From Croceicoccus sp. YJ47 (GTDB lineage: Bacteria; Pseudomonadota; Alphaproteobacteria; Sphingomonadales; Sphingomonadaceae), in the NCBI RefSeq assembly GCF_016745095.1, contig NZ_CP067087.1, positions 810,501-874,500 on the forward strand: 64,000 nucleotides of DNA, given 5' to 3'. The first letter of the stretch is position 1. Each line of letters begins with the position of its first letter. The position numbers and the translations under genes were made by a program. Below, piece by piece: positions 30,242 through 49,772 of the stretch. The notes under the pieces were generated by a model, which saw only the letters and a program-made list of their open reading frames with translations, searched no databases and was not told where the DNA came from.

Positions 30242-30245
30242 GAAA

Positions 30246-32145: not shown

Positions 32146-32171
32146 GTAACCGAATCCGCTTTCCCAACGAA
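32146..32171 (+). promoter_or_regulatory. SigF-type promoter of the doxX-sigma-nrsF operon
   Basis: GTAACC at 32146-32151, a 16-base spacer, and CGAA at 32168-32171, 67 bp upstream of the doxX-type gene. This equals the motif described for Caulobacter SigF (GTAACC-N16-CGAA). Since the sigma gene is second in the operon it heads, it implies autoregulation. Confidence 0.8.
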
Positions 32172-32238
32172 CATGAGTTGATCCTTGGCAGGTGAACTGC
32201 CGGGAATAGGCGTGCTTCAAGGCGGAGATAGGGACACT

Positions 32239-32694
32239 ATGGCGGCAACGGCGATATATGATTCGGTCGTAAAGACTGCGTCGAGCAAGGCCATAGAGGC
32301 TCTAGTACTCTTGTTCCTCCGCGTAGCTGTAGCCGGTATATTCTGGCGCTCTGGGCGGACTAAAATCGAGGAAGGCAGCGCACTACAGATCAGCGATACA
32401 ACCTACTTCCTGTTCGAGAATGAGTATGCCGGGGTACCCCTACCAAGCGAGTTCGCGGCAATAGCGGCGACAGCCGCAGAACACGTTTTTCCCATTCTAC
32501 TGATCGTGGGTCTCGCCACGCGGGTCTCGGCATTGGCGCTGCTGGGAATGACCATGGTGATCCAGCTTTTCGTCTATCCGGAAGCCTGGTGGACCACACA
32601 TATGCTATGGGCAGCCATGTTGCTCGTACTCATTGTCCGCGGCGGGGGTATGTTTTCGGTCGATCACCTCCTTGCGAAGGACCGCAGCGAATGA
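32239..32694 (+). CDS. DoxX-family membrane protein (BufD-like)
   Basis: A 151-residue protein with four predicted membrane helices; [22 protein letters not shown] near residues 23-44 is the DoxX signature. DoxX proteins often accompany bufferin (DUF2282/DUF692/DUF2063) clusters and SigF-type operons, and can couple to oxidoreductases. The ATG at 32239 starts a normal N-terminus; sequence upstream in frame is not conserved-looking. Its stop overlaps the sigma-factor start by ATGA. Confidence 0.85.
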
Positions 32695-33215
32695 GGTCCG
32701 ATGAACGAACGATGGCGAACCTCACGGCGAGGGCACAGGCTGGAGACCGCGAAGCCTACCGCGCTCTGCTGGTGGAATGCCGGAATTGGCTGGGCGCATA
32801 TTTTGCGGGTAAGGTCCCGCAGCAACTGCGGGACGACCTCATTCAGGACACATTGCTTTCGCTCCATCGGAAACTCGCGACTTATGATTCAAGGCGCGCC
32901 TTTCTACCCTGGTTGGCGGCCATTGCCCGGTACCGATGGGTCGATCAGTTACGCAGTCTCTATCGCAAACCCGAAACCCTCCTCGATGAGAACCACGCGG
33001 CCTGGAACGACGAGCCGGCCATCGCGGCCCGGATAAGTCTGGAGCGCTTGCTCGCGCGCCTTCCCGCCGGGCAAGCGGAGGCCATCGAGCTAGTCAAGAT
33101 CGAGGGCCTTTCCATTTCCGAGGCGGCGAGCGCATCGGGCCAGAGCGAATCCCTCGTGAAAGTAAATATCCATCGCGGACTAAAGCGTCTCGCGGCTTCG
33201 ATTGAAAGTGAATGA
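32691..33215 (+). CDS. sigF: ECF sigma factor, SigF/ECF16 type
   Basis: A 174-residue ECF sigma factor. Region 2 is visible around residues 20-85 ([37 protein letters not shown]) and region 4 around 112-170 ([43 protein letters not shown]). The immediate downstream gene is a DUF1109/NrsF anti-sigma factor, the hallmark of the ECF16 group. In Caulobacter this pair responds to chromate, cadmium and copper/oxidative stress. Translationally coupled on both sides. Six matching promoters are found within 17 kb. Confidence 0.93.
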
Positions 33216-33865
33216 CAATGTCGCAGTATAAGTCCGATACATTGATCGATGAGCTTGTGGGAGATCTTCAGCCGGTCCGTCCCATCAGCGTCACGCGCGG
33301 TCTGATCGTCGCAGGGGCATCGCTCTTTATCACCTTCTTAGCGGCAATCCTGATTACTGGCCTGCGCTGGAATCTTGCGATGCTTGCAGAAAGTCCGGTC
33401 TATGTCATCGCGACGGGCTCGTTTCTGCTTCTCGGATTGATAGCGTCGCTCTCGGTCGTTCTGCAGAGCAAGCCGCGGGTCGGAGCCGATCATTCCGGTT
33501 GGAAATGGGCGGCGTTGATGCTGGCCATCCTTCCCTTGGCTGCCTTGGTGAGCTCTCTCGACAGCTGGCGCACCGATTTCGTTGCGGCTTCCTCTCTCGA
33601 CGGGTTGGGCTGCGTGATGGCAGGGACGCTTTTCGGCCTGCTTACCTTCGCTGCGCTGACCATGTGGCAGCGGAAGGGCGCACCAACGAATCCGGAAAGA
33701 GCGGGTCTCTTGACGGGCATTGCTTCGGGATGTTTCGGGATTGCTGGCTTTTCGCTCAGCTGCGCCCACGCGGACATAATCCATATCGGCATCTGGCATA
33801 CCGGCGCGGTGCTGGCGTGCGCGCTTCTCGGCCGAGTGGTCGTCCCGCCTCTTCTTCGCTGGTGA
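33212..33865 (+). CDS. nrsF: Membrane anti-sigma factor of the NrsF (DUF1109) family
   Basis: A 217-residue protein with six predicted membrane helices after a 30-residue cytoplasmic N-terminus, fitting DUF1109/NrsF, which holds SigF inactive at the membrane. NrsF of Caulobacter needs conserved cysteines for signal sensing; here Cys134 (GLGCVMAG), Cys174 and Cys184 (LSCAHADIIHIGIWH) are candidates. Start overlaps the sigma factor stop and its own stop overlaps the following GTG (GTGA). Confidence 0.9.
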   Translation: MTMSQYKSDTLIDELVGDLQPVRPISVTRGLIVAGASLFITFLAAILITGLRWNLAMLAESPVYVIATGSFLLLGLIASLSVVLQSKPRVGADHSGWKWAALMLAILPLAALVSSLDSWRTDFVAASSLDGLGCVMAGTLFGLLTFAALTMWQRKGAPTNPERAGLLTGIASGCFGIAGFSLSCAHADIIHIGIWHTGAVLACALLGRVVVPPLLRW

Positions 33866-35325
33866 TCGACGAGCTCACCAAGCGCCGCGGGTCCGGAGCC
33901 GACCCGTCGCGGCCTTTGCGCGTGATCCTCGCTGGCGGGGGTCATTCGCATTTGGCCGTCCTGAAAGATTGGCAGCGCGATCCCCTGACGGGAACCGAGC
34001 GTATATTGGTGACGCCTTCGTCCCGCATGACGTATTCCGGGATGCTGCCCGGGTGGATCGAACGCTTGTACCGCCGAAGCGAACTCGAGATCGACATCCG
34101 GTCCCTGGCAGCGGCGACTGGCACTTTGGTGATGGAGGACGAGGTTGCCGCACTGGATGCCGATGCGAAACTGCTCACGCTCTCTTCGGGCAAGATCCTC
34201 GAATACGATGTACTTTCGCTTGGGGTCGGAGGACATCTCGAGCTCTCGGCCTTCTCTGGCGTCAAGTCCTTGCTTCCGGTTCGCCCGATTGATCGGTTCA
34301 TGGAGCGATGGGAGAAATTCGAGAGATCAGTCGCACAATCCGGTCCTTCGCAGATTGCGGTGGTCGGTGGGGGGGCGGCAGGAACAGAACTGGCATTCGC
34401 CGTCGCGTCTCGGTTTCAAGAGAACCCTGTCCCCGCCCGGATTGTTCTGATTACCGGACAGGATGGGCTGCTTGCCGGGCACGCATCCGGCGTCCGGAAA
34501 CGTGTGCGCGCGGCGCTTGAAGGACGCGGCGTGGACATTCAGCTGGCCGACCTCGCGGTGGGAGAAGGCGGACAGCTTGTGCACAATGGCGGTTCCGCCA
34601 GGTTCGACCTGGTGATTGCTGCGACCGGGAGCAACCCTCCTCGCTGGCTCGCCGGCAGCAGCCTGGCGCTCGGCCCCGACGGAGGCGTGTCCATCGGAGC
34701 CGATCTGGAGAGCCGGTCGCATCGCGGGGTCTTTGCCGCAGGCGATGTATCGGAGAGAGCCGACCGTAGACTGGCGCGCTCTGGAGCCCATGCCGTCAAG
34801 GCAGGCCCGATCCTTGCCGCAAACCTGCGTTCGTTCGTCCGGGGGGATAAGCTGCAATCCTATAGTCCGCGAAAGCGGACGCTATATCTACTCTCGATCG
34901 GTCAACGGAATGCGATCCTGTCGTGGGGAAGTCTGTCGGCGCAGGGCTCGTGGGTGTGGCACTTCAAGGACTGGATCGATCGCCGGTTCGTGACACATTT
35001 TCAACGTCTTGCTTTTCTCGGGCCTGCTGAATCGAGGCGAACGACGCTCGCACGTGCGATGCTCTCGCCATCTGTTTTACGCACGGCCTTGCAGGTGTCG
35101 CTTGTCGTCGGCACCTGCCTCAACGCTATCAACCAAGGCGACGAGTTGCTTTCCGGGGAGGCAGTTTCCTGGGGTCGCATCACGCTCAATTACTTTGTGC
35201 CGTTTCTCGTAGCCAGCTTCAGCGGTGCGCGCGCGCGCCAAGCGATGGAGAACGCGTCACCTTCTCGCAGGTCAAAGGCGACAGCAACAAGCCGCTCCGA
35301 CCCACTCGATCAGGAAACCACCTAG
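33862..35325 (+). CDS. FAD-dependent NDH-2-like oxidoreductase fused to an NrtS-type membrane domain
   Basis: A 487-residue protein. The first 380 residues form a two-dinucleotide-binding flavoprotein of the NDH-2/FAD-pyridine nucleotide family: LAGGGHSHLAVLKDW near residue 20 for FAD, VVGGGAAGTELAFAVA near 165 for NAD(P)H, and the GVFAAGDVSE FAD motif near 290. The HSHL wording resembles the domain seen in selenide-dikinase-fused flavoproteins. After residue 405 comes a domain with two hydrophobic helices (VSLVVGTCLNAINQGDELL, LNYFVPFLVASFSGA) that resembles NrtS. GTG 33862 overlaps the nrsF stop. Likely acceptor: membrane quinone; true donor and acceptor unknown. Confidence 0.8.
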   Translation: MIDELTKRRGSGADPSRPLRVILAGGGHSHLAVLKDWQRDPLTGTERILVTPSSRMTYSGMLPGWIERLYRRSELEIDIRSLAAATGTLVMEDEVAALDADAKLLTLSSGKILEYDVLSLGVGGHLELSAFSGVKSLLPVRPIDRFMERWEKFERSVAQSGPSQIAVVGGGAAGTELAFAVASRFQENPVPARIVLITGQDGLLAGHASGVRKRVRAALEGRGVDIQLADLAVGEGGQLVHNGGSARFDLVIAATGSNPPRWLAGSSLALGPDGGVSIGADLESRSHRGVFAAGDVSERADRRLARSGAHAVKAGPILAANLRSFVRGDKLQSYSPRKRTLYLLSIGQRNAILSWGSLSAQGSWVWHFKDWIDRRFVTHFQRLAFLGPAESRRTTLARAMLSPSVLRTALQVSLVVGTCLNAINQGDELLSGEAVSWGRITLNYFVPFLVASFSGARARQAMENASPSRRSKATATSRSDPLDQETT

Positions 35326-37475
35326 TGAAACGCCTTGTCCTCCTGACGGTCCTCTCCCTCGCGCTGTTTTTTTGGTTCGTTTTCGATCTGGGACAATATG
35401 TGAGCCTAGAGGCGATCAAGCAGCATCAGAGCACGATCGCACACTTTTACGAGGACCACCCGGTCCTTGTCCTCGGCGCCTTCTTCCTTGGCTATGTCTT
35501 GCTCACCGCCTTGTCATTTCCCGGAGCGGCGCTGCTGACTCTTCTGGCAGGTGCACTCTTCGGCCTGGTCGTGGGCACCATTGTAGTGTCATTCGCCTCG
35601 ACAATCGGTGCAACTCTGGCGTTTCTGGCAGCGCGATATCTGTTTCGCGACATGGTTCAGTCCCGCTTCGCGCAGCGTCTCAAAGCCATCAATGCAGGTG
35701 TCGAACGCGATGGTGCCTTCTACCTGTTTTCGCTGCGGCTCGTGCCGGTGTTCCCTTTCTTTGCCGTCAATCTCGTGATGGGTCTGACCCCCGTCCGCAT
35801 CTGGACCTATTTTTGGGTCAGCCAGCTCGGCATGCTGCTAGGTACCATCGTGTACGTCAACGCCGGCACCCAGCTCGCCGGTATCGAGAACGTTCGCGAT
35901 ATCGCGACAACTGAATTGCTGCTTTCCTTTGCCGCGCTTGGTTTGCTGCCGTGGATTGGAAAGTTCGTCATGCGCTGGATCAAACGCGGCCAAGTCTATC
36001 GCAAGTGGCAGAGACCTCGCTCGTTCGACCGTAACCTCGTAGTTCTCGGTGCAGGCTCCGCAGGTCTCGTCTCGTCCTACATCGCCGCGACAGTCAAGGC
36101 CAAGGTAACGTTGGTCGAAGCCTCAAAGATGGGCGGCGACTGTCTCAATTACGGCTGCGTCCCTTCCAAGGCGCTCATCAAGAGTGCCAAGGTCGCGCAC
36201 CATATGCGTGAGGCGCAAGAGTATGGCCTTTCAGCGGTGGAGCCGCAGTTCAGTTTTTCCGCGGTGATGGACCGCATTCACCGGATCATTGCCGAAATCG
36301 AGCCCCATGACAGCGTCGAGCGCTATACCGGCCTCGGTGTGGATGTGTTGCAGGGTTATGCCCGGCTAGTCGATCCCTGGACCGTCGAAATAACCGCCAG
36401 CAATGGCAGCACGCATCGGCTTACCACGCGCGCGGTCGTCATAGCGGCAGGGGCCGAACCATTCGTGCCCGACCTGCCCGGCCTTTCTGATACGGGCTAT
36501 CTTACCAGCGATACGCTTTGGGATGAGTTCGCTCGGCTCGAAGAGATACCCCGGCGCATTGTCGTGCTCGGCGGCGGACCGATCGGCTGCGAGTTGTCTC
36601 AGGCTTTCGCGCGGCTCGGAGCGACCGTGACGCAGGTCGAGCGCGGTGATCGGATACTGGCCCGTGAAGATGGCGATGTGTCCGAACTCGCCAAAGCCAG
36701 TCTCGAGGCGTCGGGTGCAACCGTTCTGACCGGTCACGAGGCAATCGGGTTCGAGACCGAACAAGGTGAGAAGATCGCTATCCTGCGCAGCGAGGATGGC
36801 GAATGCCGCATCGGGTTCGATGCCCTGATTGTCGCGATTGGCCGCAAGGCCCGCCTTTCAGGCTACGGGCTGGAAGAACTGGGCATCGGTACTGACAAGA
36901 CGGTCGTCACCGATGATTACCTCGCCACGCTCTATCCCAACATCTACGCGGCCGGAGACGTGGCCGGCCCCTATCAGTTTACCCACACCGCCGCCCATCA
37001 GGCCTGGTTCGCGAGCGTCAACGCCCTGTTCGGGCAGCTCTGGCGCTTCAAGGCCGATTACCGGGTAATTCCTTGGACGACGTTTCTCGATCCGGAAATC
37101 GCCCGGGTCGGTCTCAACGAGAAGGAAGCGAAAGAGAAGGGTATCGACTACGAGGTAACCATCTACCCTATGGATGACCTCGACCGGGCAATCGCCGAAA
37201 GCGAGACGGGCGGCTTCGTCAAGGTGCTGACGCCTCCGGGCAAGGATCGGATCCTGGGAGTTACCATCGTTTCGGCTCACGCTGGCGAGCTGCTTGCCGA
37301 ATATGTGCTCGCAATGAAACATGGCCTTGGTCTCAATAAGATCCTCGGCACGATCCACACCTACCCCACGCTTGCCGAGGCGAACAAGTTTGCTGCCGGT
37401 GAATGGAAAAAGAAACATGTGCCCGAAAGGCTGCTTGCCATCGTCGAGCGATATCATCGCTGGCGGCGCGGCTAG
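35325..37475 (+). CDS. TVP38/TMEM64 membrane domain fused to a mercuric-reductase-like flavoprotein
   Basis: A 716-residue fusion. Residues 1-220 are a TVP38/TMEM64 (SNARE-associated, DedA-like) membrane domain with the FPGAALLTLLAGALFG and LRLVPVFPFFAVNLVMGLT re-entrant motifs. From residue 235 a class I pyridine-nucleotide-disulfide oxidoreductase follows: VVLGAGSAGLVSS for FAD, redox-active GGDCLNYGCVPSKALI near residue 270, GGGPIGCELSQAFARLG for NAD(P)H and the IYAAGDV motif. The C-terminal dimerisation domain has HTYPTLAEA. The Hg(II)-binding C-terminal Cys pair of MerA is absent, so the substrate is probably a disulfide or quinone rather than mercury. GTG 35325 shares one base with the preceding stop. 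Confidence 0.9.
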   Translation: MKRLVLLTVLSLALFFWFVFDLGQYVSLEAIKQHQSTIAHFYEDHPVLVLGAFFLGYVLLTALSFPGAALLTLLAGALFGLVVGTIVVSFASTIGATLAFLAARYLFRDMVQSRFAQRLKAINAGVERDGAFYLFSLRLVPVFPFFAVNLVMGLTPVRIWTYFWVSQLGMLLGTIVYVNAGTQLAGIENVRDIATTELLLSFAALGLLPWIGKFVMRWIKRGQVYRKWQRPRSFDRNLVVLGAGSAGLVSSYIAATVKAKVTLVEASKMGGDCLNYGCVPSKALIKSAKVAHHMREAQEYGLSAVEPQFSFSAVMDRIHRIIAEIEPHDSVERYTGLGVDVLQGYARLVDPWTVEITASNGSTHRLTTRAVVIAAGAEPFVPDLPGLSDTGYLTSDTLWDEFARLEEIPRRIVVLGGGPIGCELSQAFARLGATVTQVERGDRILAREDGDVSELAKASLEASGATVLTGHEAIGFETEQGEKIAILRSEDGECRIGFDALIVAIGRKARLSGYGLEELGIGTDKTVVTDDYLATLYPNIYAAGDVAGPYQFTHTAAHQAWFASVNALFGQLWRFKADYRVIPWTTFLDPEIARVGLNEKEAKEKGIDYEVTIYPMDDLDRAIAESETGGFVKVLTPPGKDRILGVTIVSAHAGELLAEYVLAMKHGLGLNKILGTIHTYPTLAEANKFAAGEWKKKHVPERLLAIVERYHRWRRG

Positions 37476-37518
37476 TGAGCTCATTCGGCACCAGCCAAAT
37501 GATCTGAAAGGAATACCG

Positions 37519-37953
37519 ATGAAACAATTCGCACTGGTAAGCCTGCGTGTCGCAACCGCTCTGCTTCTCGTTGTCTGGGGACTCATTCGCGTGACGGCAC
37601 CCGAAAAAGGCGCCGGGGTGAGCGCGAAATACTATTCCGGACTGGGATCGGCTAAAGTGATTCAGGTCGTCTGGGGCGCGGCACTGCTGATTATCGGCAT
37701 GCTCGTCATCATTGGCCTGTTCCGGCGGTTTGCCCTTGTCGCGCAGGCCGTCGTGCTGGTGTTCGGCGCGCTGACCATCTGGAAATATCTGCTCGATCCG
37801 CTGGGCCTTTATCTGCTGACGCCCGAGACCAGCAATGTCCTCTTCTTCCCCTCGCTCGCACTCGCTTTCGCCAGCCTGCTTCTTGTCGCCATGCGTGACG
37901 AGGACCGCTGGTCGCTCGATTGCTTACTCGAGGCGCGTCGGGCCGGAAAATGA
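37519..37953 (+). CDS. Small four-helix membrane protein (DoxX-like)
   Basis: A 144-residue protein with four predicted helices (about residues 7-25, 48-66, 70-88, 107-124) and an acidic/basic C-terminal tail (RDEDRWSLDCLLEAR). Layout resembles DoxX/DoxD-type proteins, but no signature is decisive. It lies 43 bp after the TVP38 fusion and 49 bp before the TonB receptor. AAAGGAA precedes the ATG at 37519. Role unknown; perhaps a partner of the neighbouring flavoproteins. Confidence 0.65.
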   Translation: MKQFALVSLRVATALLLVVWGLIRVTAPEKGAGVSAKYYSGLGSAKVIQVVWGAALLIIGMLVIIGLFRRFALVAQAVVLVFGALTIWKYLLDPLGLYLLTPETSNVLFFPSLALAFASLLLVAMRDEDRWSLDCLLEARRAGK

Positions 37954-38002
37954 CCCGTCCTTGCCCTTCTTTTGCGACCTGCGATCCGACTGGAACATCT
38001 CA

Positions 38003-41000
38003 ATGCGAATGACTGCTCTCCATCTGGGCGGTGCGGCCTGCGTGGTCGCCCTCTGCACTGCATCGCCCGCTCATGCCCAGCAGGCGGGGATCGCCATTGC
38101 GGTCGTCGATGCGGAGAGCGGTGAGGCAGTTCCCGATGCCGAAATCCGGATAGTCAACGGCAGTATCGGATATGACCGGATCCTCCTCACCGATGCCAAC
38201 GGCCAGGTCCGGATCGAAGGCCTCACCACAGCGGGAAGCTACCGGGTCGTTGTGAAGGGCGATGCCGAGGGAAGCGACGGGGCAGCGTCGCGCGAGGTCG
38301 CGTTGCGGGCAAATTTCACAAGCAGTGTCACGCTTCGCATCAATCGCGCTGACAATACGATCGTCGTGACGGGCCTTCGAGCGGTAACCGGCTTGAATGC
38401 GGTCAATGCGGAAGTGGCGGCCTCCCTCGGCGAGAAGGAGCTTGTGGCTCTCCCGATCGAGGGCCGCGATGTCATTGGAGCGTTGGTGCGCCTCCCGAAC
38501 GTGGTTCCCTCGACCGGCTTCTTTCCCGAGGCGCCTTCGATCTCCATTAACGGCTCGAACAGCCTGAACACCAACTATCTGATCGATGGCCTCGATAATA
38601 ACGAGAACTTTCTCGGCGGACTCAAATTTCCGGTGCCGCTTGGTTTCACGCGGGAAGTCACGGTGCTCGCAAATTCCTATTCGGTCGAATACGGGCGCAC
38701 GGCGAATGGCATCGTCAATTATACCACGCCATCGGGATCGAACGAGTTCCATGGCGAAATCTACGGGCTGGTCCGCCCGGGCCGGCCGTTGGACGCTCGA
38801 TCTGCCTTCCCGAGGCGCGATCTGACCGGCAATCCGGTCGGAGACAGTTTCGAACGCTATCAGGCCGGTGCCAGCCTCGGTGGCCCGATCGCACGCGACC
38901 AAACTTTTTTCTACGCCAATTACGAATTTACGCGCGATCGCAACGTGCAGACAGTCGACGCCCCGCTGCTCGGCGTCGTCGAGAACGTCACGGGAAACAA
39001 TGAATTTCATCTCGGCTCTTTCAGGATCGACCACAGGCTTACCGATGACTGGACGCTTTCGCTGCGCGCCAATATCGGTCGTGTTTCGGTCGATCGTCCA
39101 GGCGGCGCGTTGGGGGGCGGGAATGTTACCTTTCCCTCGGCCGGGTCGCGGCAAGACCGCTTCTCGACTCTGGTTGCAGCGACTGCGACCTTTTCGGGCA
39201 ATGTGTGGAGCTACGACGGGGCACTCCAGTATAGTCGCTTTAGATGGGGTTACGGAAAGCCTATTTCTGGCGCTGGACCGCAGGTTACGATTCAGGGCCC
39301 GAGCGGACTGTCCGCCGGCGTGGTTGGGCATCCCGGCTTCGTTTTCGACAGTCTCGAGGAGACGTGGCAGACGAGCCACCGGGTGCAGCGGTCCATTGGC
39401 GAACATACGCTGACCGTGGGGGTCGATGGGATCAATTCGAATATCGGTCTGCTCGGCGGCGGAAATCCCGATGGAAACTATACCGTACGGCTCACCGATG
39501 CGCAGCTTGGAGCACTTGCTCAGGGCGGTTCGGGTCTTGACCTCGGTGCCAGCGCGGTTCTCGCGCTCGATCCGGCGGTCGTCAACTACGCGGTAGAGCT
39601 GCGCCCGCAGAGCTTCGGCACTGACCAGACGCAGCTCGCCTTCTATGTCGAGGACGAGTGGCAGCTTACGTCACGGCTGACAGCCACGCTGGGCCTGCGG
39701 TATGATTACGACAGTCTCTCCGAAGAAGGCGGCAGCGGCGGCGACTACGATAACATCGCGCCGCGCTTTGCCCTGAATTACCGTCCCGATGCGCGGTCCA
39801 CCCTGCGGTTCGGTGCGGGTCTCTTCTACGGCAAACTGTCCTACGCCGTCGTGTCAGACGCACTCCAGCGCAACACGCGATCGCCGGGGTTCCTGAACCA
39901 GCTCGCGCAATTGCAGTCGCTGGGTCTGCTCCCTGCGCAAGCCGACCTTGCCGAGGTGACCTTCGATGGCAACCTTGCCGTATCGCCTGACTGCGCGACG
40001 GTCTCGCAATGCCCCGCGCCCGATGAGGTACTGCAATTGCGGGATACGTCCGTGATAAACGAAGCCCGTATCCTCAGTCCCGAAGGCTACGACAATCCCT
40101 ATTCGGTGCAGCTGAGCGCTGGCTACCAGTTCCAGGCGACCGACACGATCACCCTAGGCGCCGACCTCGTCTATAGCCGTTCGCACAATCTGGTGCGTCT
40201 ACGCGATCTCAATGCGCCAGCATCGTTCAGTACCGATCTCGCCAATCTGACAGCGGACAATATCGCCCTCTTGCAAGCCGCGCCCGACAATGCCTCGCGC
40301 CTCACCCTTGCGCAGCAACTGGGGCTGGTGCGTTCGCAGGCAGATGCCGATGCGTCGCGGCCAGTCTCGCTGCAGCCCGGCGGCGCGCGGCAGATCACCG
40401 TGTCCGAGACTTCCGGAGAGGCCGAATACACGGCGCTCATCCTGCAGGCAAACAAGGCGAGGGGTGATGATTTCTACGGCTTCCGGCTCGCCTACACGCT
40501 GTCCAGCCTCGAGAACGACACCGACGACATCAACTTTCGAGCTTCCGATGGCAACGACTTCGCTTCCGAATGGGGGCCGTCCGCGAACGACCGGCGCCAC
40601 GTCATTTCCGCAGTGGGCTTTCTCTATCCGACTGACGGTCTAACCCTAACCCTTGCGGGCCTCTTCCAGTCCGGCCAGCCCGTGAACTTCGTGCCCGACG
40701 CGCGGATTTTCGGCACGCAGGACCTCAACGGCGACGGAGCAAGCTTCGGCGAGAACTTTGTCGGAAATTCGGATCGCTATCCCGGGGCGCAAAGGAATTC
40801 AGGGCGTTTACCGTGGTCGGCCACTGTCGATCTTGGCGTACGCTATGCATTGCCGGTTCTTGGCGGGCGGCTCGAGGCAAGTGCCGATGTATTCAACCTG
40901 TTCAATGCCAACAACGAGTCCGGCTTTGCAAACGCCGCCACCACCTCGAACCAGGTGCAGTTTGGCGGCGGTGCATCCTTCGTGCAGCGCAATGCCGGTC

Positions 41001-41041
41001 CGCCCCGCCAGTTCCAGTTCGGCCTGGCCTACAAGTTCTGA
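38003..41041 (+). CDS. TonB-dependent outer-membrane receptor with carboxypeptidase-regulatory N-domain
   Basis: A 1012-residue protein. A signal peptide (cleavage after about residue 26, SPAHAQ) leads to an 80-residue CarboxypepD_reg-like beta-sandwich (VVDAESGEAVPDAEIRI), a plug domain (about 130-250, SISINGSNSLNTNYLIDGLDN) and a 22-strand barrel ending in the aromatic FGLAYKF. This is the Oar-like layout of receptors for larger or unknown ligands. No siderophore genes are adjacent. Being inside the sigma-factor operon, it may import a metal complex or metabolite under the same stress control. Confidence 0.88.
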   Translation: MRMTALHLGGAACVVALCTASPAHAQQAGIAIAVVDAESGEAVPDAEIRIVNGSIGYDRILLTDANGQVRIEGLTTAGSYRVVVKGDAEGSDGAASREVALRANFTSSVTLRINRADNTIVVTGLRAVTGLNAVNAEVAASLGEKELVALPIEGRDVIGALVRLPNVVPSTGFFPEAPSISINGSNSLNTNYLIDGLDNNENFLGGLKFPVPLGFTREVTVLANSYSVEYGRTANGIVNYTTPSGSNEFHGEIYGLVRPGRPLDARSAFPRRDLTGNPVGDSFERYQAGASLGGPIARDQTFFYANYEFTRDRNVQTVDAPLLGVVENVTGNNEFHLGSFRIDHRLTDDWTLSLRANIGRVSVDRPGGALGGGNVTFPSAGSRQDRFSTLVAATATFSGNVWSYDGALQYSRFRWGYGKPISGAGPQVTIQGPSGLSAGVVGHPGFVFDSLEETWQTSHRVQRSIGEHTLTVGVDGINSNIGLLGGGNPDGNYTVRLTDAQLGALAQGGSGLDLGASAVLALDPAVVNYAVELRPQSFGTDQTQLAFYVEDEWQLTSRLTATLGLRYDYDSLSEEGGSGGDYDNIAPRFALNYRPDARSTLRFGAGLFYGKLSYAVVSDALQRNTRSPGFLNQLAQLQSLGLLPAQADLAEVTFDGNLAVSPDCATVSQCPAPDEVLQLRDTSVINEARILSPEGYDNPYSVQLSAGYQFQATDTITLGADLVYSRSHNLVRLRDLNAPASFSTDLANLTADNIALLQAAPDNASRLTLAQQLGLVRSQADADASRPVSLQPGGARQITVSETSGEAEYTALILQANKARGDDFYGFRLAYTLSSLENDTDDINFRASDGNDFASEWGPSANDRRHVISAVGFLYPTDGLTLTLAGLFQSGQPVNFVPDARIFGTQDLNGDGASFGENFVGNSDRYPGAQRNSGRLPWSATVDLGVRYALPVLGGRLEASADVFNLFNANNESGFANAATTSNQVQFGGGASFVQRNAGPPRQFQFGLAYKF

Positions 41042-41052
41042 AAGTGGCAAGC

Positions 41053-42339
41053 ATGATCCCGGACGCATTACTGAATTTGCAGGGCCTGATCGGGCTTGCC
41101 ATCGTGCTCCTCGTCGCTTGGGCGATTTCCGAAGACCGCGCGGCTCGGCCGGGATGGCGCTGGATTGGAGGTGCGCTGGCGCTGCAGTTCGTCATCGCTC
41201 TGGTCGTGACTCGGGTTCCCTTCGTTTGGACACTGGTCGGTTATGCCAACAGCGCGGTCTCGGCGATCGAACGCGCGACGCTGGTCGGGTCGAGCTATAT
41301 GTTCGGCTATACCGGCGGCGCACCCATTCCCTTCGTGCTCAAACCGGGCGCTGATGAGCCGGTCATCGTTGCCTTCCAAATCCTTCCGCTGATCATCGTT
41401 TTCTCCGCTATCGCGGCTCTGCTCTGGCACTGGGGCATCCTGCGCGCTGCAGTCCGCGGATTGTCGTGGGCCCTGCGCAAGACCCTGGGTGTCAGCGGCG
41501 TAGTCGGATTGGGAGCTGGCTCCACGATCTTCCTCGGCGTGGTAGAATCGCCGCTCGTTCTTAAAGCCTGGTTTGCCAGGATGACCCGCCCGGATCTGTT
41601 CGCTATCATGGTGCTGATCATGGCCACGATCTCGGGGGCCATACTGGTGCTCTATGCGACCACCCTGTCGCAGACCGTGCCGAACGCCGTGGGCCACATG
41701 ATCGTGGCCTCGCTGATATCGCTGCCCGCCGCCGTGCTCGTTGCCCGGCTAATGGTCCCCGCCGCAGTGGGCACGACGCCGGACGAGGAAACCGCTGATG
41801 AACCCGAGGCGGGCCTCAAATACGAAAGCAGCATGGATGCTCTGATCAGGGGCACCGCGGATGGCGTGACGCTGGTACTCGCGGTGCTCGGGATCATTAT
41901 CGTTATCTTTGCGCTGGTGAATATCGCAGACCAGATCCTGTTCCTGTTTCCCGGGGTCGACGGCACGCCGCTCACCTTGCAGCGCATCTTCGGCTGGCTG
42001 TTCGCGCCCGCCATGTGGGCTATTGGAGTGCCATGGGACCAGGCTCCCGCAGCGGGTGGTCTCATGGGCACCAAGGCGATCCTCAACGAATATGTCGCCT
42101 ACCTGGAACTCGCCGCACTTCCACCCGGGACGCTCGATCCGCGCACCTTGCTGATCGTGACCTACTCGCTCTGCGGTGTCGCCAACCTCGCCAGTGTCGG
42201 ACTGATCGTCTCGACGGTTGGGACCCTGTGCCCCGAGCGTCGCGGCGATGTCGCGGCTCTTGGCATGAAAAGCTGGCTTGCCGGCAATATGGTTTCGCTC
42301 ATGACAGGCGCGGTCATCGGCATCGTCACCTGGAATTGA
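41053..42339 (+). CDS. Concentrative nucleoside transporter family (NupC-like)
   Basis: A 428-residue inner-membrane protein of the CNT family. The N-terminal three-helix part precedes the gate and core domains: FAFQILP-like VAFQILPLIIVFSAI near residue 112, LGVSGVVGLGAGSTIFLGVVESPLVLK near 145, and the C-terminal GTKAILNEYVAYLEL and YSLCGVANLASVGLIVSTVG. Such transporters carry nucleosides with Na+ or H+. It lies 11 bp after the TonB receptor gene, which suggests that the two handle the same molecule. A GTG at 41044 is an alternative start. Confidence 0.88.
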   Translation: MIPDALLNLQGLIGLAIVLLVAWAISEDRAARPGWRWIGGALALQFVIALVVTRVPFVWTLVGYANSAVSAIERATLVGSSYMFGYTGGAPIPFVLKPGADEPVIVAFQILPLIIVFSAIAALLWHWGILRAAVRGLSWALRKTLGVSGVVGLGAGSTIFLGVVESPLVLKAWFARMTRPDLFAIMVLIMATISGAILVLYATTLSQTVPNAVGHMIVASLISLPAAVLVARLMVPAAVGTTPDEETADEPEAGLKYESSMDALIRGTADGVTLVLAVLGIIIVIFALVNIADQILFLFPGVDGTPLTLQRIFGWLFAPAMWAIGVPWDQAPAAGGLMGTKAILNEYVAYLELAALPPGTLDPRTLLIVTYSLCGVANLASVGLIVSTVGTLCPERRGDVAALGMKSWLAGNMVSLMTGAVIGIVTWN

Positions 42340-42349
42340 GGACCGCGCA

Positions 42350-42967
42350 ATGTTGGATGCCAAACTGCGACCGCTCATAGATCCTCCGCTCGATGCAGCC
42401 GGGAGCTGGATCGCAAGACGAGGGATCGGACCCAACGCGGTCACCCTCATCGGTCTTGTACCGGGCCTGGCTGCCGCAGTGGCGATCGCGCAAGGCGCGT
42501 TCGCCCTCGGGCTCGTCCTGGTTCTACTCAACCGGCTTCTCGATGGTCTCGATGGCGCGGTAGCACGGGCGACCCGACAGACAGATTTTGGCGGCTATCT
42601 CGATATCGTCGCCGACTTTGCTTTCTACGTCGCGGTGCCGCTGGGCTTCGGCTTCGCGGCTCCAGCCAACACGCTTCCCGCGATGGTGCTTGTGGCCGCC
42701 TTCACGCTGACCGGCATCAGCTTCCTTGCTTTCGCGACGCTTGCCGCGAAACGCGGGGTCGCAACCGAGGCGCACGGGCGCAAGAGCTTCTTTTACAATA
42801 CCGGCCTCGCGGAGGGCACCGAGACGATCCTCGTTTTTGTGCTCATGTGCCTATGGCCCGAGCAGTTTGCGCTGTTTGCCTGGATATATGCGGGCCTGTG
42901 CCTGCTGACAGTGATCCAGCGCAGCGCTCTTGCCCACGCGATGTTCCGATCGGATACGACTGAATAG
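42350..42967 (+). CDS. CDP-alcohol phosphatidyltransferase family protein
   Basis: A 205-residue membrane enzyme with the full catalytic signature DG-x2-AR-x8-G-x3-D-x3-D (DGLDGAVARATRQ then GGYLDIVADF, about residues 62-87). Family members move a phosphoalcohol from CDP-alcohol to an acceptor hydroxyl in phospholipid synthesis. The acceptor cannot be told; it is not close to PgsA or PssA in length or neighbours. It follows the nucleoside transporter by 10 bp. Confidence 0.88.
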   Translation: MLDAKLRPLIDPPLDAAGSWIARRGIGPNAVTLIGLVPGLAAAVAIAQGAFALGLVLVLLNRLLDGLDGAVARATRQTDFGGYLDIVADFAFYVAVPLGFGFAAPANTLPAMVLVAAFTLTGISFLAFATLAAKRGVATEAHGRKSFFYNTGLAEGTETILVFVLMCLWPEQFALFAWIYAGLCLLTVIQRSALAHAMFRSDTTE

Positions 42968-42980
42968 AAAGGGTTTCATA

Positions 42981-43583: not shown

Positions 43584-43603
43584 CGCTCGCCCCACCGGGA
43601 CGG

Positions 43604-43629
43604 GGAACGTTGGCTCAGAGCGTCGCGTT
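43604..43629 (+). promoter_or_regulatory. Candidate EcfG-type general stress promoter
   Basis: GGAAC at 43604-43608, a 17-base spacer and CGTT at 43626-43629, 35 bp before the haloacid-dehalogenase-like gene. This fits the alphaproteobacterial EcfG consensus (GGAAC-N16/18-CGTT). EcfG and PhyR are not in the window, so this rests on the motif alone. Confidence 0.5.
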
Positions 43630-43664
43630 CAAACCGGTAATGTGTGCATTGGAGAAGGAACGTG

Positions 43665-44327: not shown

Positions 44328-44450
44328 ATTTTTTGTCGATTTTGCGCCCCGCGGTGAAGGGTGCGCCGGAAAGAAGTCCGCATCATGCGGAACAACGCCA
44401 GTCCAGCCACGTCGTCTCGATATACTGATACAAGAAGTGGAGACGACCAC

Positions 44451-45380: not shown

Positions 45381-45434
45381 TTCCTGGCTCTCGTGCTTCA
45401 CGAGCTCCCACAGCGAACATTCCCACGCTTCAGT

Positions 45435-46010
45435 CTATTGGGGCGCGCTCCATTCGCGTGCCGCAAAGGCCTCGTCGACTTCCGTATGGAAAAGGTGATT
45501 GCTGTAATTGGAGATGACCTTCACGCTGATGGCGAGGATTATCCCGAGGATGTGGGTCTCGGAGTATCCCGCCTCCAGAAACGCCTTGGCCTGAGCAGGT
45601 GAGGGATTACCACGCGTTTCCGACATCACGCGGGTGAACTCGGCGAGCGCGCGCAGCTTGGGTTCGGGGATTTCCTGGTCGCTGCGGATCGCGTCGGTCA
45701 CTTCTGCCGGAACGCCGGACATGGTGTCGGCGAGCGTGCTGTGGGCAGCGACGCAATAATGGCACTCATTTGCGCGGCTGACCGCGAGAAGGATGACCTC
45801 CTGCTCGACGGAAGAAAAACCAGCGTCTTCGCGAAACTTGTCGTATCCGAAGCTGTAGGTCGCCAGCAGAGCCGGAAGATTGGCCATGCCGGCATACATG
45901 TTGGGGACCATGCCCATGGTCTTCTGCGCCTGTTTGAGCGGAGCGCTAACGGCTTCATCCGTATCGTCCGGAGTGCGTAGCGAAAGTTCGATCTGGTAAG
46001 TGTCTGACAT
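45435..46010 (-). CDS. AhpD-like peroxidase-related protein
   Basis: A 191-residue carboxymuconolactone-decarboxylase-family protein. The redox motif ECHYCVAAHS near residue 85 and GMVPNMYAGMANLPALLATYSFGYDKF near residue 33 match the 'uncharacterised peroxidase-related' group. ATG 46010 starts the natural N-terminus; the frame upstream of it is not conserved-looking. It lies 52 bp downstream of the flavodoxin-like gene and shares its SigF-type promoter. Confidence 0.85.
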   Translation of the reverse strand: MSDTYQIELSLRTPDDTDEAVSAPLKQAQKTMGMVPNMYAGMANLPALLATYSFGYDKFREDAGFSSVEQEVILLAVSRANECHYCVAAHSTLADTMSGVPAEVTDAIRSDQEIPEPKLRALAEFTRVMSETRGNPSPAQAKAFLEAGYSETHILGIILAISVKVISNYSNHLFHTEVDEAFAAREWSAPQ

Positions 46011-46062
46011 TGTCAGCTCCCGTGATATTGAAGGAAATGCGAAAAGGCTTGGCGCGTGGCCG

Positions 46063-46782
46063 CTAGCGGTATTCCGGATTGGGATGATCGAAATGGATGC
46101 CGGCTTCCCAAGCGTCCTTCTGGTTGCCCGGAGTGGGGTATCCACCCGCCTGCTTGAGCATCGCGGCCATATGCATCAGGTTCCACGCCATGAACGTCGT
46201 GTTCCGGCGGGTGAAATCGTTGTCGAGCCCGACTTTCCCATCGTCGCCGTAGGAAGGGCCGGGTCCCGCTTCGCCGATCCATCCGGCATCGGCCTGAGGG
46301 GGAACCACGTACCCCAGATGCTGGAGCGAATAGAGCATGTTCATCGCGCAGTGCTTGATGCCATCCTCGTTGCCCGTGATGATACAGCCCGCTGTCCGTC
46401 CGTAATAGACGTATTGCCCCCTCGCATTGGTTTCACCGCTGTATCCGTAGAGCCGTTCTATCGCACGGGTGCATATGGATGACTTGTCACCTAACCAGAT
46501 CGGCGTTCCGAGAACGAGTATGTCGGCGGCCAGGACCTTTTCCTGGATGGCGGGCCAGTCGTCGGCGTCCCACCCATGGTCACGCATATCGGGCTGAACT
46601 CCCGGCGCGATGTCGTAGTCGGCGAGGCGCAAGGATTGCGCGGCGACACCGTTCGCCTCCATGATCGTGATGGCATTATCCATCAGGAGCTGGGTGTGCG
46701 ATTGCTGGTCGGATCGCTTGAGGCTGCAGTTGAGAAAGAGGGCTGAAAGCCCCTGTCCGCTGAATTGGGTTTCGCCTGTCAT
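46063..46782 (-). CDS. NAD(P)H-dependent FMN reductase / flavodoxin-fold protein
   Basis: A 239-residue flavodoxin-fold protein. LFLNCSLKRSDQQSHT near residues 15-30 forms the FMN phosphate loop, LGTPIWLGDKSSICTRAIERL near residue 90 binds the isoalloxazine, and GRTAGCIITGNEDGIKHCAMN follows. Likely an NAD(P)H quinone or flavin reductase of the WrbA/iron-sulfur flavoprotein group without the Cys cluster. First gene of a two-gene operon under a SigF-type promoter 34 bp upstream. Confidence 0.85.
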   Translation of the reverse strand: MTGETQFSGQGLSALFLNCSLKRSDQQSHTQLLMDNAITIMEANGVAAQSLRLADYDIAPGVQPDMRDHGWDADDWPAIQEKVLAADILVLGTPIWLGDKSSICTRAIERLYGYSGETNARGQYVYYGRTAGCIITGNEDGIKHCAMNMLYSLQHLGYVVPPQADAGWIGEAGPGPSYGDDGKVGLDNDFTRRNTTFMAWNLMHMAAMLKQAGGYPTPGNQKDAWEAGIHFDHPNPEYR

Positions 46783-46815
46783 GGTAATCCTTGCTTATGA
46801 TGTGTCCTGGGCGGG

Positions 46816-46841
46816 TTCGTTCGCCCCGTCCGGTAAGTTAC
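46816..46841 (-). promoter_or_regulatory. SigF-type promoter (GTAACT variant) of the flavodoxin/AhpD operon
   Basis: On the minus strand GTAACT (46841-46836), 16 bases, then CGAA (46819-46816), 34 bp before the start at 46782. Only the last base of the -35 hexamer differs from GTAACC. It is arranged back-to-back with another copy on the plus strand. Confidence 0.65.
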
Positions 46842-46871
46842 ATCCGACGACATTTTTTGCGCCGTACCATT

Positions 46872-46897
46872 GTAACCACGCGCCTCTTTTGCACGAA
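46872..46897 (+). promoter_or_regulatory. SigF-type promoter of the small membrane protein gene
   Basis: GTAACC at 46872-46877, 16 bases, CGAA at 46894-46897, 81 bp upstream of ATG 46979. Divergent from the GTAACT copy on the other strand. Confidence 0.75.
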
Positions 46898-46978
46898 TAC
46901 CCCTGAATGAGCCCGCCTCGCCGAACGATCAGATACTGCGGTTGTGAAGGGCCATTTTGACAACAGGGGAGAACGATA

Positions 46979-47455
46979 ATGCGATCGCAATTTCATCTCG
47001 GCGGAGCGCTCAAGGCCTGTGTCATCGCGGCTGTGGTCTTCCTCATGGCCGAAATGGCCATGGTTGCCCTCATCGAGGGTCAGAGTCCGTTCGGCCCACC
47101 CCGCATGATGGCTGCGATCGTGATGGGCCGCGACGTGCTACCGCCACCTGCAACATTCGACCTGGGCATCATGATGGTGGCTATGATGGTGCATCTTGCT
47201 CTGTCCGTCGTCCTGGGGATCATCTGGGGCCTGATCCATTCGACCCTCGGACTTTCGAGATGGGTCGCCGTCGGCGTTGCGGCGGTGTTCGGCTTGCTTG
47301 TCTATGCCGTCAACTTCTACGGATTTACCGCCCTCTTTCCCTGGTTCGAGATGGCGCGCGGCACAGTAAGTGCAGTTGGCCATGCGATCTTCGGAATTGC
47401 ACTCGGGTGGGCCTACGGTGCCTATGTCTGCGAAAGCGATCAAGCACTCGCCTGA
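46979..47455 (+). CDS. Four-helix membrane protein of unknown function
   Basis: A 158-residue protein with four predicted helices (about residues 10-30, 62-84, 92-113, 128-148) and a loop containing PFGPPRMMAAIVMGRDVLPPP. Met-rich segments (GIMMVAMMVH) line one helix, which could suit a copper-related role, but this is inference. I do not recognise the family. AGGGGAG precedes the ATG. It stands alone under a SigF-type promoter and is convergent with the papain-like gene. Confidence 0.7.
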   Translation: MRSQFHLGGALKACVIAAVVFLMAEMAMVALIEGQSPFGPPRMMAAIVMGRDVLPPPATFDLGIMMVAMMVHLALSVVLGIIWGLIHSTLGLSRWVAVGVAAVFGLLVYAVNFYGFTALFPWFEMARGTVSAVGHAIFGIALGWAYGAYVCESDQALA

Positions 47456-47486
47456 TGCCCGAGGACAGGGTTGAATTTGCTTGGTA

Positions 47487-48129
47487 TTAGCAGCCCAACG
47501 AACGCGTGAGTGCGCTTAGACCGCGCGCGGATACTCTGCCCAGTTCACGTGTGATTTGCGGAAGTATGGGATAGCGGATCGATTGGAACGCGCGGGCGAC
47601 CAGCGTCGAGCAGATCGCCATAAAAGGCTCCCCGCTCCCGAGCGCCAGCATCCGTCTGCGCCATCCTGCCGGAACCGGAGGGGTAGGAAAGAGATAGCGA
47701 GCCAGATCGACCACATCGGCCAGATCGTCGGAATCGCCCACCCGTCCTAGCGCGAAATCCGTAACCGCCTTTATATCGTTTTCGTTCAATCCGACCGGAC
47801 GGCAGATACGTGTCTGAAAATTGCTAAACTGCGAAGGGCTGACAACGCGAACCCCTGCGATAGCATCGGCCTCGACGAAGCTGACCTCGCGTTCGGCGCT
47901 GGTATTCTCTGAGGCAACACACAGCGCAGCATGCGACCAAATCGACTGGGGTGAGGTATTTGATGGCCGTGCTGATTCGCTGCTGACCATCGACGAGAAG
48001 CACGTCGCTTGGTCTCAGTTCTCGCGCAAGAGCCATTTCGTCTGTCGGAACGCTAGCAAAGGGCGAGCGCGAGGGACCGGTAAGATAGCGTGCCAGCAGG
48101 CGCCCGATCATGCGCGAGAAGCGGGCCAT
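47487..48129 (-). pseudogene. YiiX-like permuted papain-fold hydrolase, frameshifted
   Basis: The first frame from ATG 48129 reads DVLLVDGQQRISTAIKYLT near residue 40, then breaks. The second frame resumes as QSIWSHAALCVA, which is the usual continuation of YiiX/YebB-like NlpC/P60 relatives (TQSxWSHAAL), and carries on with VEADAIAGVRV and LARYLFPTPP to 47487. Removing one base from the G run at 47948-47951 (C run on the coding strand) repairs a 213-residue protein. These enzymes are permuted papain-like amidases or thioesterases acting on lipid or peptide amides. Second gene of a pair with the CBS protein. Confidence 0.72.
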
Positions 48130-48131
48130 CG

Positions 48132-48585
48132 TCAGCTCGTCAGTGACAACATGCGCCCGCGGGCGATATTGCGCAGTACGCCGGCCTCGAGTCTGGCTTC
48201 CTCCAGCAGGGCCGCAACCAGATCGCCCAGGGAAACCAGGCCGGCGATCGCAAGGTCAGAACTGCGCACCACGCAGTGTCGGAACCGCTGACGCGTCATG
48301 GAGAGCATTACATCGCAAGCCTCCGCATCGCAGCTGCAGAACAGGACCTGACGCCGCATGAATATCAGAGCAGGAAGCTGCAAGGCGTGCGGTCCGCGCT
48401 GGGCAAGCCCCGCCATTAGTTCCTGCTGCGAGACGATTCCTTGTATGTCTGCCGGATTGCTTCCGACAATCCCGACCGATCCGATGCCTTCGTGGTGCAT
48501 TGTCGATACAGCCTCGGAGAGAGTTGCTTTCCCGCACAGTCCGAAAGTCGGTACCCTTGCGGTTCATGATTGCCGCGATTTTCAT
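48132..48585 (-). pseudogene. CBS-domain protein, frameshifted near its N-terminus
   Basis: From ATG 48585 the frame reads MKIAAIMNRKGTDFRTV and is then lost; another frame continues with LSEAVSTMHHEGIGSVGIVG, QGIVSQQELM and a second CBS repeat (MTRQRFRHCVVRSSDLAIAGLVSLGDLV) to 48132. Removing one base from the G run on the coding strand (plus-strand CCC at 48531-48533) joins them into about 150 residues with two CBS motifs, a domain that senses adenosyl nucleotides. A SigF-type promoter lies 35 bp upstream, and the papain-like gene begins just after its stop. Confidence 0.75.
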
Positions 48586-48619
48586 GCCATTTCTCCTGGC
48601 GATGTCCCCTGCCTTTCAA

Positions 48620-48645
48620 TTCGCGCCTCGGCGCCGCGGGGTTAC
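48620..48645 (-). promoter_or_regulatory. SigF-type promoter of the CBS/papain-like pair
   Basis: Minus-strand GTAACC (48645-48640), 16 bases, CGAA (48623-48620), 35 bp upstream of the CBS gene start at 48585. Confidence 0.75.
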
Positions 48646-48790
48646 AAACAACAGGTTCCTGGCTCCGGCCCATGAGCGGTGAGGAGCGCTTTTGCGTAAC
48701 TGTTTTTGGAAAAGGGGTGCGGGCACGGCGGTCGGGACCGCGTGCAATGGATTCCAATTTCTTGCTGGGGGTCGCTGAGGAACGAATAAG

Positions 48791-48859
48791 CCGGTGCCGA
48801 CGCATGCATCGACACCGGTCCAGGCTGGGAGGAAGATCTTGTTATGGTCCGCCCAGCCT
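48791..48859 (-). terminator. Double hairpin after bufA1
   Basis: Two hairpins stand directly downstream of the bufA1 stop: AGGCTGGG/CCCAGCCT (48822-48829 and 48852-48859) and an imperfect stem from CCGGTG to CACCGG (48791-48818), followed on the minus strand by CTTATTCGTTCC. Probably the terminator of the monocistronic bufA1 transcript. Confidence 0.5.
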
Positions 48860-48892
48860 CAAACTTCGCGGGCGGGAAATGCGAGTCGGTGC

Positions 48893-49177
48893 TTAGCGCT
48901 TGATGGGAGTGAGGGATCCCTTGCCCTTGGGGGTTTCGATCTTTACGCACGTACCCTTGGGAACGAGCTTCCAAGCGTTCCCCTGGTAGTCGCGGGTCGA
49001 GGTTCCGGCGCAGCTTGTACCAGGACCGGCGGCGCAGTCGTTCTCGCCAGCCTTGGCGACGCCGTAGCACTTTTCCATTTCCTGCTTCTGGGCGGCTGCT
49101 GGCGTCGCAGCCAGTCCGGCAGCCGCACTCGCTGCGAATGCGAGTCCGGCAATGCGGGCGATCGAGGTCTTGTTCAT
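48893..49177 (-). CDS. bufA1: Bufferin precursor, BufA1/DUF2282 type
   Basis: A 94-residue precursor peptide. A Sec signal peptide (about 29 residues, ending TPAAAQ) is followed by a short core with four cysteines: [17 protein letters not shown] and KGTCVK, the DUF2282 pattern. In characterised bufferin systems a DUF692 (MNIO) enzyme with a DUF2063 partner converts Cys residues to thiooxazole groups, and the exported peptide binds copper. Transcribed away from bufA2-bufB-bufC, each from its own SigF-type promoter. ATG 49177 follows GGAGAAT. Confidence 0.85.
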
Positions 49178-49242
49178 TGTAATTCTCCACTCTCGGATGG
49201 GTCTCACGCACCGCACGGTAGCTCGTGGATGCTGTTTCCGGG

Positions 49243-49268
49243 TTCGGCGCGGCCGCTGCGAAGGTTAC
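49243..49268 (-). promoter_or_regulatory. SigF-type promoter of bufA1
   Basis: Minus-strand GTAACC (49268-49263), 16 bases, CGAA (49246-49243), 65 bp upstream of the bufA1 start. Confidence 0.8.
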
Positions 49269-49291
49269 ACAAAAATGTCTTTCGGGCTGCT

Positions 49292-49317
49292 GTAACCTGG
49301 AGCAGCCTGGCAGCGAA
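49292..49317 (+). promoter_or_regulatory. SigF-type promoter of bufA2-bufB-bufC
   Basis: GTAACC at 49292-49297, 16 bases, CGAA at 49314-49317, 49 bp upstream of bufA2. The two divergent -35 elements are only 23 bp apart. Confidence 0.8.
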
Positions 49318-49366
49318 CTGGGGATGTGCGCCGCATCGAGCGCTGCGTGCATCAGGGAGAATTCTC

Positions 49367-49657: not shown

Positions 49658-49772
49658 TCAATTCCCTGTCTCGTGCGGAATGTTTCGCGCGGGCTGCGGT
49701 CCGGGACCCGGATTACCTCGTCCCCCCAACCCCAACGGGTGCCGGACCGCTTCTTTTGTCGAGAGATCGGAT

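Follow-up and report, generated by a model that had tools for sequence, protein, structure and literature searches.

The closest described systems are built around sigma factors of extracytoplasmic function (ECF) group 16, among them SigF of Caulobacter crescentus with its anti-sigma factor NrsF. The Caulobacter SigF promoter is GTAACC-N16-CGAA (PMC3511200), the ECF group 16 consensus is quoted as tGTAACc-N16-CGAA (PMC3420878), and (T/C)GTAAC-N17-CGAA is given in PMC8315932. Control of bufferin operons by SigF has already been published for Caulobacter (PMC3511200, PMC8224329), where SigF is induced by copper and a sigF mutant is copper-sensitive (PMC8224329). Caulobacter NrsF carries the cysteines C131 and C181, 50 residues apart (PMC3511200), and the published cysteines of OsrA (C129 and C179) are likewise 50 residues apart. 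Methionine sulfoxide reductases are ECF16 targets in Brucella and Bradyrhizobium (PMC8315932, PMC3420878), and a Sinorhizobium ECF16 factor is covered in PMC6180224. We found no publication on a sphingomonad ECF16 regulon, most subscription papers being outside our coverage. Here we analyse a 64-kb stretch (the window) of the genome of Croceicoccus sp. YJ47 (one contig of 3,353,209 bases), in which a sigF-nrsF pair lies close to six matching promoter sites. The regulon they appear to form is of a known kind, well delimited, and has new content.

Six SigF-type promoter sites in the window and in the genome

The sites, each recognized as a motif match, are:

32145..32171, plus strand: TGTAACC-N16-CGAA before doxX-sigF-nrsF; the copy in Sphingomonas sp. 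AX6 (AX6) has one spacer change
46816..46842, minus strand: TGTAACT-N16-CGAA before an FMN reductase gene; also in AX6
46871..46897, plus strand: TGTAACC-N16-CGAA before the gene of a methionine-rich membrane protein, here called MetTM; recurs before homologues at 6 of 54 loci
48620..48646, minus strand: TGTAACC-N16-CGAA before a CBS/C92 unit
49243..49269, minus strand: TGTAACC-N16-CGAA before bufA1; arrangement conserved in relatives
49291..49317, plus strand: TGTAACC-N16-CGAA before bufA2; arrangement conserved in relatives

Exact matches to GTAACY-N16-CGAA number six in the window, at the places and on the strands named in an earlier sequence-only reading of this DNA, and the preceding base is T in all six, which extends the motif to TGTAACY-N16-CGAA. 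That reading equated the motif with the one reported for Caulobacter SigF, and the match to GTAACC-N16-CGAA bears this out: judged by its bases, the window motif is the promoter published for ECF16 factors and Caulobacter SigF. All six sites point towards their gene. The distance from CGAA to the start codon is 67 bp for doxX (ATG at 32239), 33 bp for the FMN reductase gene, 81 bp for MetTM, 34 bp for the CBS gene, 65 bp for bufA1 (ATG at 49177) and 49 bp for bufA2; orientation and upstream position are thus as first described, and the range becomes 33-81 bp instead of 34-81 bp.

A chance origin, which the same reading had considered very improbable, finds little room. In 100 dinucleotide shuffles of the window, GTAACY-N16-CGAA occurred 0.11 times on average and at most once, and the base composition of the window predicts 0.007 matches to TGTAACY-N16-CGAA per 17.2 kb and 1.4 per genome. 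A genome-wide scan, proposed earlier as a check, confined the exact motif to the six sites, with no further TGTAACY-N16-CGAA in the 3.35-Mb genome. The looser GTAAC-N17-CGAA occurs 13 times in the genome, compared with 24 times for a reversed control pattern. Six of these 13 are the window sites; two of the other seven have the form GTAACY, both as CGTAACC and both flagged within long open reading frames (ORFs). When up to one mismatch to TGTAACY-N16-CGAA was allowed, 41 sites (6 exact, 35 with one mismatch) were found versus 50 for the control, which shows no excess beyond the six exact sites. Among 24 of the 35 one-mismatch sites that were inspected, no credible extra target emerged; 22 were flagged within ORFs by a crude test based on GC content at third codon positions. 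We also considered whether the gap between the FMN reductase and MetTM genes duplicates the bufA1/bufA2 promoter region, but the alignment was gapped and unconvincing.

The sigma factor pair and its link to the motif in related genomes

The core of the sigF operon consists of:

32239..32694, plus strand: doxX (Pfam DoxX, 63.9 bits, cut-off 23.6)
32712..33215, plus strand: sigF, ECF sigma factor (Pfam Sigma70_r2, 36.4 bits, and Sigma70_r4_2, 48 bits, both above cut-off)
33212..33865, plus strand: nrsF, anti-sigma factor (PF06532/DUF1109, 127 bits, cut-off 26.8)

Sigma regions 2 and 4, an adjoining DUF1109 gene, two cysteines and a promoter before the operon itself are all present, as in ECF16 systems. 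The DUF1109 assignment of the anti-sigma factor, made earlier from the letters, is upheld by the PF06532 score, and the gene overlaps sigF. This NrsF is the sole match in the source genome; its score against the NCBIfam equivalog NF042994 is 40 bits, below the cut-off of 300. C134 and C184, 50 residues apart, are invariant in 13 aligned sequences.

We found NrsF in 45 of 146 genomes searched, our own included, 44 of them over the family cut-off. YGTAAC-N17-CGAA occurs on average 10.5 times in 41 NrsF-positive and 5.3 times in 45 NrsF-negative genomes (Mann-Whitney p 3.4e-6, indicative only because the genomes are related), whereas the reversed control pattern averages 12.2 and 12.3 in the same 86 genomes (p 0.86). 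This comparison covers one family; our own genome, a genome with one weak match below the cut-off (G063) and genomes of other families were left out. At least one site was present in 34 of 40 NrsF or bufferin loci examined (38 stretches around NrsF matches, out of 50 listed places, and two plasmid regions). Strict sites in 15 NrsF-positive relatives precede genes for bufferins, FAD/NAD flavoproteins (5 genomes), MsrA, MsrB, thioredoxin-like and DoxX proteins; Pfam was run on ten such proteins, among which were two of these flavoproteins and single representatives of MsrA, MsrB, thioredoxin and a DoxX-flavoprotein fusion. Not every strict site in the relatives is a promoter: 27 of 79 distinct ones were flagged within long ORFs, though the test used is crude and picks out one sigF promoter as well.

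A strict site with a palindromic spacer, TGTAACCGGTTCAGGTT(C/T)CTGAACGAA, is nearly identical in three genus mates (L172, L201, L203). Two types of small membrane protein recur downstream of strict sites, one at L168 (1578-2192), also carried by L156, L176 and L218, and one at L186 (1210-1530), also carried by L177, L192 and L219; the two proteins tested had no Pfam match at E 1e-4.

Bufferin genes

48893..49177, minus strand: bufA1, Buf1 (DUF2282) bufferin precursor (PF10048, 92.4 bits, cut-off 22.4)
49367..49657, plus strand: bufA2, Buf2 bufferin precursor (NF050166, 103.9 bits, cut-off 60)
49773..50609, plus strand: bufB, MNIO enzyme (PF05114, 365 bits)
50606..51382, plus strand: bufC, DUF2063 partner, start uncertain (PF09836, 62.7 bits)

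Precursors, MNIO enzyme and DUF2063 partner all score above the cut-offs of PF10048, NF050166, PF05114 and PF09836, as expected for a bufferin cluster. The divergent side-by-side arrangement of bufA1 and bufA2 recurs in 11 relatives, ten of which have a site in each direction between the two genes and one of which (L081) has a single site. The annotation of a Sphingobium RAC03 plasmid places bufC-bufB-bufA2 to one side and bufA1-doxX-sigF-nrsF to the opposite side. In the window, some 15 kb separate the sigF operon from bufA1, and the operon has a site of its own ahead of doxX. A single MNIO gene stands beside the Buf1 and Buf2 precursor genes (48893-51382), and one enzyme may serve both precursors. 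Beyond the block, putative DksA-like, universal-stress-protein and SulP-type genes were named by eye at 52550-55264.

MetTM, a methionine-rich membrane protein

46979..47455, plus strand: MetTM, 158-aa methionine-rich membrane protein (no family; AlphaFold model)

Neither Pfam nor NCBIfam has a family that the MetTM protein of the window matches above its cut-off. The gene is rare: relatives in 148 genomes, our own included, gave a single weak match (26% identity). A scan with one genome per species yielded 55 loci, of which 54 were used (L321 had no match at E 1e-5). Across these 54 loci (620,049 bases) there are 13 sites on both strands, and six of them lie upstream of MetTM on its strand, five besides the one in AX6. 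The gap to MetTM is 81 bp in AX6 (L268), 31-37 bp in L269 depending on the start codon, 38 bp in L271, 46 bp in L275, 49 bp in L320 and 265 bp in L285. In L271 and L285, sigF is the divergent neighbour of MetTM, and L285 continues with a bufferin operon that has a site of its own. An NrsF search entered with 50 of the 54 loci and covering 48 genomes found NrsF in all six genomes with a site before MetTM versus 12 of the 42 others (Fisher p 0.0015).

The AlphaFold model (31 sequences) is confident and all-helical, with four long and two short helices, a mean predicted local distance difference test score (pLDDT) of 95.1 and a predicted template modelling score (pTM) of 0.88. Foldseek returned no match in PDB at E <=0.001 (best E 1.7). 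H72 and H135 are nearly invariant, and position 43 is methionine in 30 of 31 sequences; the other methionines are found in 3 to 24 of 31. Assignment to DUF1440 was rejected for the window protein (11.2 bits, Pfam cut-off 34.7); 25 of 33 aligned members match this family weakly (best E 4e-5); some members match DUF6789 (3 of 33, best 2.1e-6) or YqhR. MetTM was also rejected as a methionine-rich peptide of the MrpX/BcrX kind, given its 158 residues, the four long helices of the model and the lack of an MsrA gene in the block. We found no publication on MetTM, which was not sought under other names, with most subscription papers outside coverage. MetTM is the real novelty of the predicted regulon.

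FMN reductase and CBS/C92 units

46063..46782, minus strand: flavodoxin-fold FMN reductase (Pfam FMN_red, 47.6 bits, cut-off 24)
45435..46010, minus strand: AhpD/carboxymuconolactone-decarboxylase family protein, downstream of the FMN reductase (Pfam CMD)
48132..48585, minus strand: CBS-domain gene, broken by frame changes near the start (three-frame view; CBS match of one frame)
47487..48129, minus strand: C92 papain-like gene, broken by an internal frame change, C-terminus missing (piecewise comparison with nine uninterrupted relatives)

AX6 also contains the block, doxX through MetTM, with proteins 87-98% identical to those of the window and with three sites. In the 6 kb past MetTM, AX6 has a C92-like fragment of 198 bp and no CBS or bufferin match. 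A second AX6 locus (L367) holds another sigF-nrsF pair with its own site and, beside it, a divergent site that precedes the gene of a small exported protein.

The C92 gene is neither uninterrupted nor complete at the conserved C-terminus when compared with its nine relatives, and a single base error cannot account for the missing C-terminus. Because both genes of the unit are broken, the predicted promoter before them drives no intact product. None of the nine C92 relatives has a site upstream; at one of their loci (L126), a CGTAAC form whose spacer is 18 bases long occurs in another place. A plasmid homologue of the CBS fragment was sought without a match.

Likely extension of the sigF operon

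33862..35325, plus strand: Pyr_redox_2 flavoprotein, overlaps the nrsF stop; probable sigF operon member
35325..37475, plus strand: fusion of VTT domain and pyridine-nucleotide-disulphide oxidoreductase (Pfam); probable sigF operon member
37519..37953, plus strand: second doxX-like gene (assigned by eye on its translation), 43 bp beyond the end of the fusion gene

The Pyr_redox_2 gene is a probable operon member because it overlaps nrsF and this continuation is syntenic in AX6 and G025; it overlaps in turn the start of the VTT-flavoprotein fusion gene (35325). The product of the second doxX-like gene had no Pfam match at E 0.001, and its gene order is conserved in L060 and L366. Three of nine full-length relatives of the fusion protein (L133, L138, L140) have a site 15-42 bp upstream of the gene, and a fourth (L141) has one about 0.8 kb upstream; these are four of the six relatives from NrsF-positive genomes and none of the three from NrsF-negative genomes. 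Since the genes overlap and sites precede fusion relatives in NrsF-positive genomes, the flavoprotein genes likely belong to the SigF regulon via the operon. The sigF transcription unit thus probably extends through two flavoproteins and the second doxX. The promoter and gene set of the earlier doxX-sigF-nrsF operon stand, and its extent probably does not.

The VTT-flavoprotein, NupC and CDP-alcohol phosphatidyltransferase genes (window 35325-42967) stay neighbours in several relatives (L060, L229, L231, L233-L235), NrsF-negative genomes included. At L208 (1604-3001), a DoxX-Pyr_redox_2 fusion starts 23 bp past a strict site, a combination reminiscent of the window operon with its doxX and flavoprotein genes. 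Upstream of the block (28942-30277), ORFs resemble by eye those of an arsenate-reductase-type phosphatase, a glyoxalase-family protein and an ArsR-type regulator.

Proposed regulon and alternative explanations

We read the locus as a self-contained ECF16 (SigF/NrsF) envelope-stress regulon, with a probability of about 0.82. NrsF, a predicted membrane protein with two invariant cysteines, would keep SigF inactive until envelope stress, most likely copper or an agent that oxidizes thiols or methionine, reaches NrsF and frees SigF, which would then guide RNA polymerase to the TGTAACY-N16-CGAA promoters. The outputs would comprise SigF and NrsF themselves, DoxX and probably the two flavoproteins, the two copper-binding bufferin precursors with the MNIO enzyme and its partner, the FMN reductase with the AhpD-type protein, and MetTM; the sixth promoter would face the decayed CBS/C92 unit. 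The release mechanism, the inducers and the actual use of promoters are carried over from work on Caulobacter and Bradyrhizobium, and it is by this analogy that we infer direct use of all six.

Several observations weigh against this reading. The FMN reductase site is missing upstream of all 20 close orthologues (60-70% identity) and of nine more distant ones; outside the window, the flavodoxin/AhpD promoter named earlier was seen solely in the near-identical AX6 block. Among the six units, one is broken: the CBS/papain-like pair, earlier counted as a regulon member, retains its site, with both genes interrupted. No upstream site was found at 48 of the 54 MetTM loci and no site at all at 6 of the 40 sigF/NrsF or bufferin loci, the relatives are not independent of each other, and a search for the exact motif could miss weaker promoters. 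Neither of the two msrA copies of the source genome has a site with up to one mismatch upstream (coding strand, in the stretch scanned), unlike the MsrA genes that follow SigF-type sites in several relatives, and SigF control of msrA was rejected here on that account.

An alternative is a smaller regulon in which only the sigF promoter and the two bufferin promoters work and the FMN reductase, MetTM and CBS/C92 sites are chance matches or relics. The orthologues without the FMN reductase site, the broken CBS/C92 genes and the MetTM loci without an upstream site favour it. However, three additional chance sites are very improbable given the composition-based expectation for 17.2 kb, five genomes other than AX6 also have the MetTM site, which adjoins sigF in two of them, and the three sites shared with AX6 differ at 7 of 48 spacer bases but at 0 of 33 motif bases (Fisher p 0.04), which makes this explanation unlikely. 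Another sigma factor could read or share the sites, with SigF not the main user, as might be suspected from the additional unknown regulator reported at the promoter region of Caulobacter sigF itself (PMC3511200); but motif frequency tracks NrsF while the control pattern does not, and NrsF is present in every genome where a site precedes MetTM (six of six), so we hold this for very improbable. The motif was first spotted by eye in this window, which raises the question of an artefact of composition or post hoc choice. With the motif published beforehand (PMC3511200, PMC3420878) and the cluster not reproduced by reversed controls or shuffles, such an artefact has next to no chance of being the answer.

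The local SigF regulon, one sigma gene with six matching promoters as first proposed, holds at the level of sequence in the window, the genome and the relatives. The methionine-rich membrane protein, then named as an addition to SigF regulons, gains support from the site in five genomes besides AX6. Because 48 MetTM loci have no upstream site, predicted SigF control is one use of the MetTM family, not its definition. We tentatively propose, at somewhat less than even odds, that MetTM founds an undescribed family of ECF16 effectors, helical membrane proteins with two nearly invariant histidines, a conserved NFYG-T-FPWF-AR loop and a fold unmatched in PDB, which would protect the envelope from methionine oxidation or handle copper, and that ECF16 systems can also be transferred as closed regulons, in which the switch travels with nearly all its promoters.

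Compactness of this kind is seen in one further assembly. In a Sphingomonas metagenome-assembled genome of 2.4 Mb (L269, G149), which may be incomplete, all six strict sites lie within 17 kb of one 37-kb contig that also carries MetTM, a peroxiredoxin gene, sigF, NrsF and two bufA1-like genes. The seven other genomes in this count have 1 to 6 strict sites each, AX6 having three in the block and three elsewhere. The source genome is a clear case of a sigma factor with all exact sites near its own gene, and the promoter signal is specific enough here for the whole regulon to be read from sequence, in a form testable by one deletion. It would also place an unassigned membrane protein family and the VTT/flavoprotein module in a copper/oxidant response alongside the bufferins.

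Comparison with known systems

Caulobacter crescentus SigF/NrsF (PMC3511200, PMC8224329) shares with this locus the GTAACC-N16-CGAA promoter, a two-cysteine NrsF and control, predicted here, of two bufferin operons and doxX. The Caulobacter targets are dispersed across the chromosome, with msrPQ (CC2748 and its neighbour) among them, whereas here the exact sites found are confined to 17 kb, doxX is the first gene of the sigF operon, and the predicted regulon adds the FMN reductase/AhpD pair, MetTM and probably two flavoproteins. The ECF16 systems of Brucella (BcrS/AbcS), Bradyrhizobium (EcfF/OsrA) and Sinorhizobium (RpoE7) have in common with it an ECF16 sigma factor, a DUF1109 anti-sigma factor and (T/C)GTAAC-type promoters (PMC8315932, PMC3420878, PMC6180224); in contrast to Brucella and Bradyrhizobium, the source genome has no methionine sulfoxide reductase linked to the motif. 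The perchlorate reduction island, a genomic island with sigF/nrsF, yedYZ and mrpX (PMC4623255), likewise combines an ECF16 sigma/anti-sigma pair and a methionine-rich product, but MetTM is a predicted multi-helix membrane protein rather than a methionine-rich periplasmic peptide, and no methionine sulfoxide reductase was identified in the window block. Bufferin clusters (PMC12452194) share Buf1 and Buf2 precursors, an MNIO enzyme, a DUF2063 partner, DoxX, a sigma factor and NrsF. According to that survey, sigma factor and NrsF genes belong to Buf1 and not to Buf2 clusters, whereas here and in relatives the Buf2 operon diverges from bufA1 with SigF-type sites between the two.

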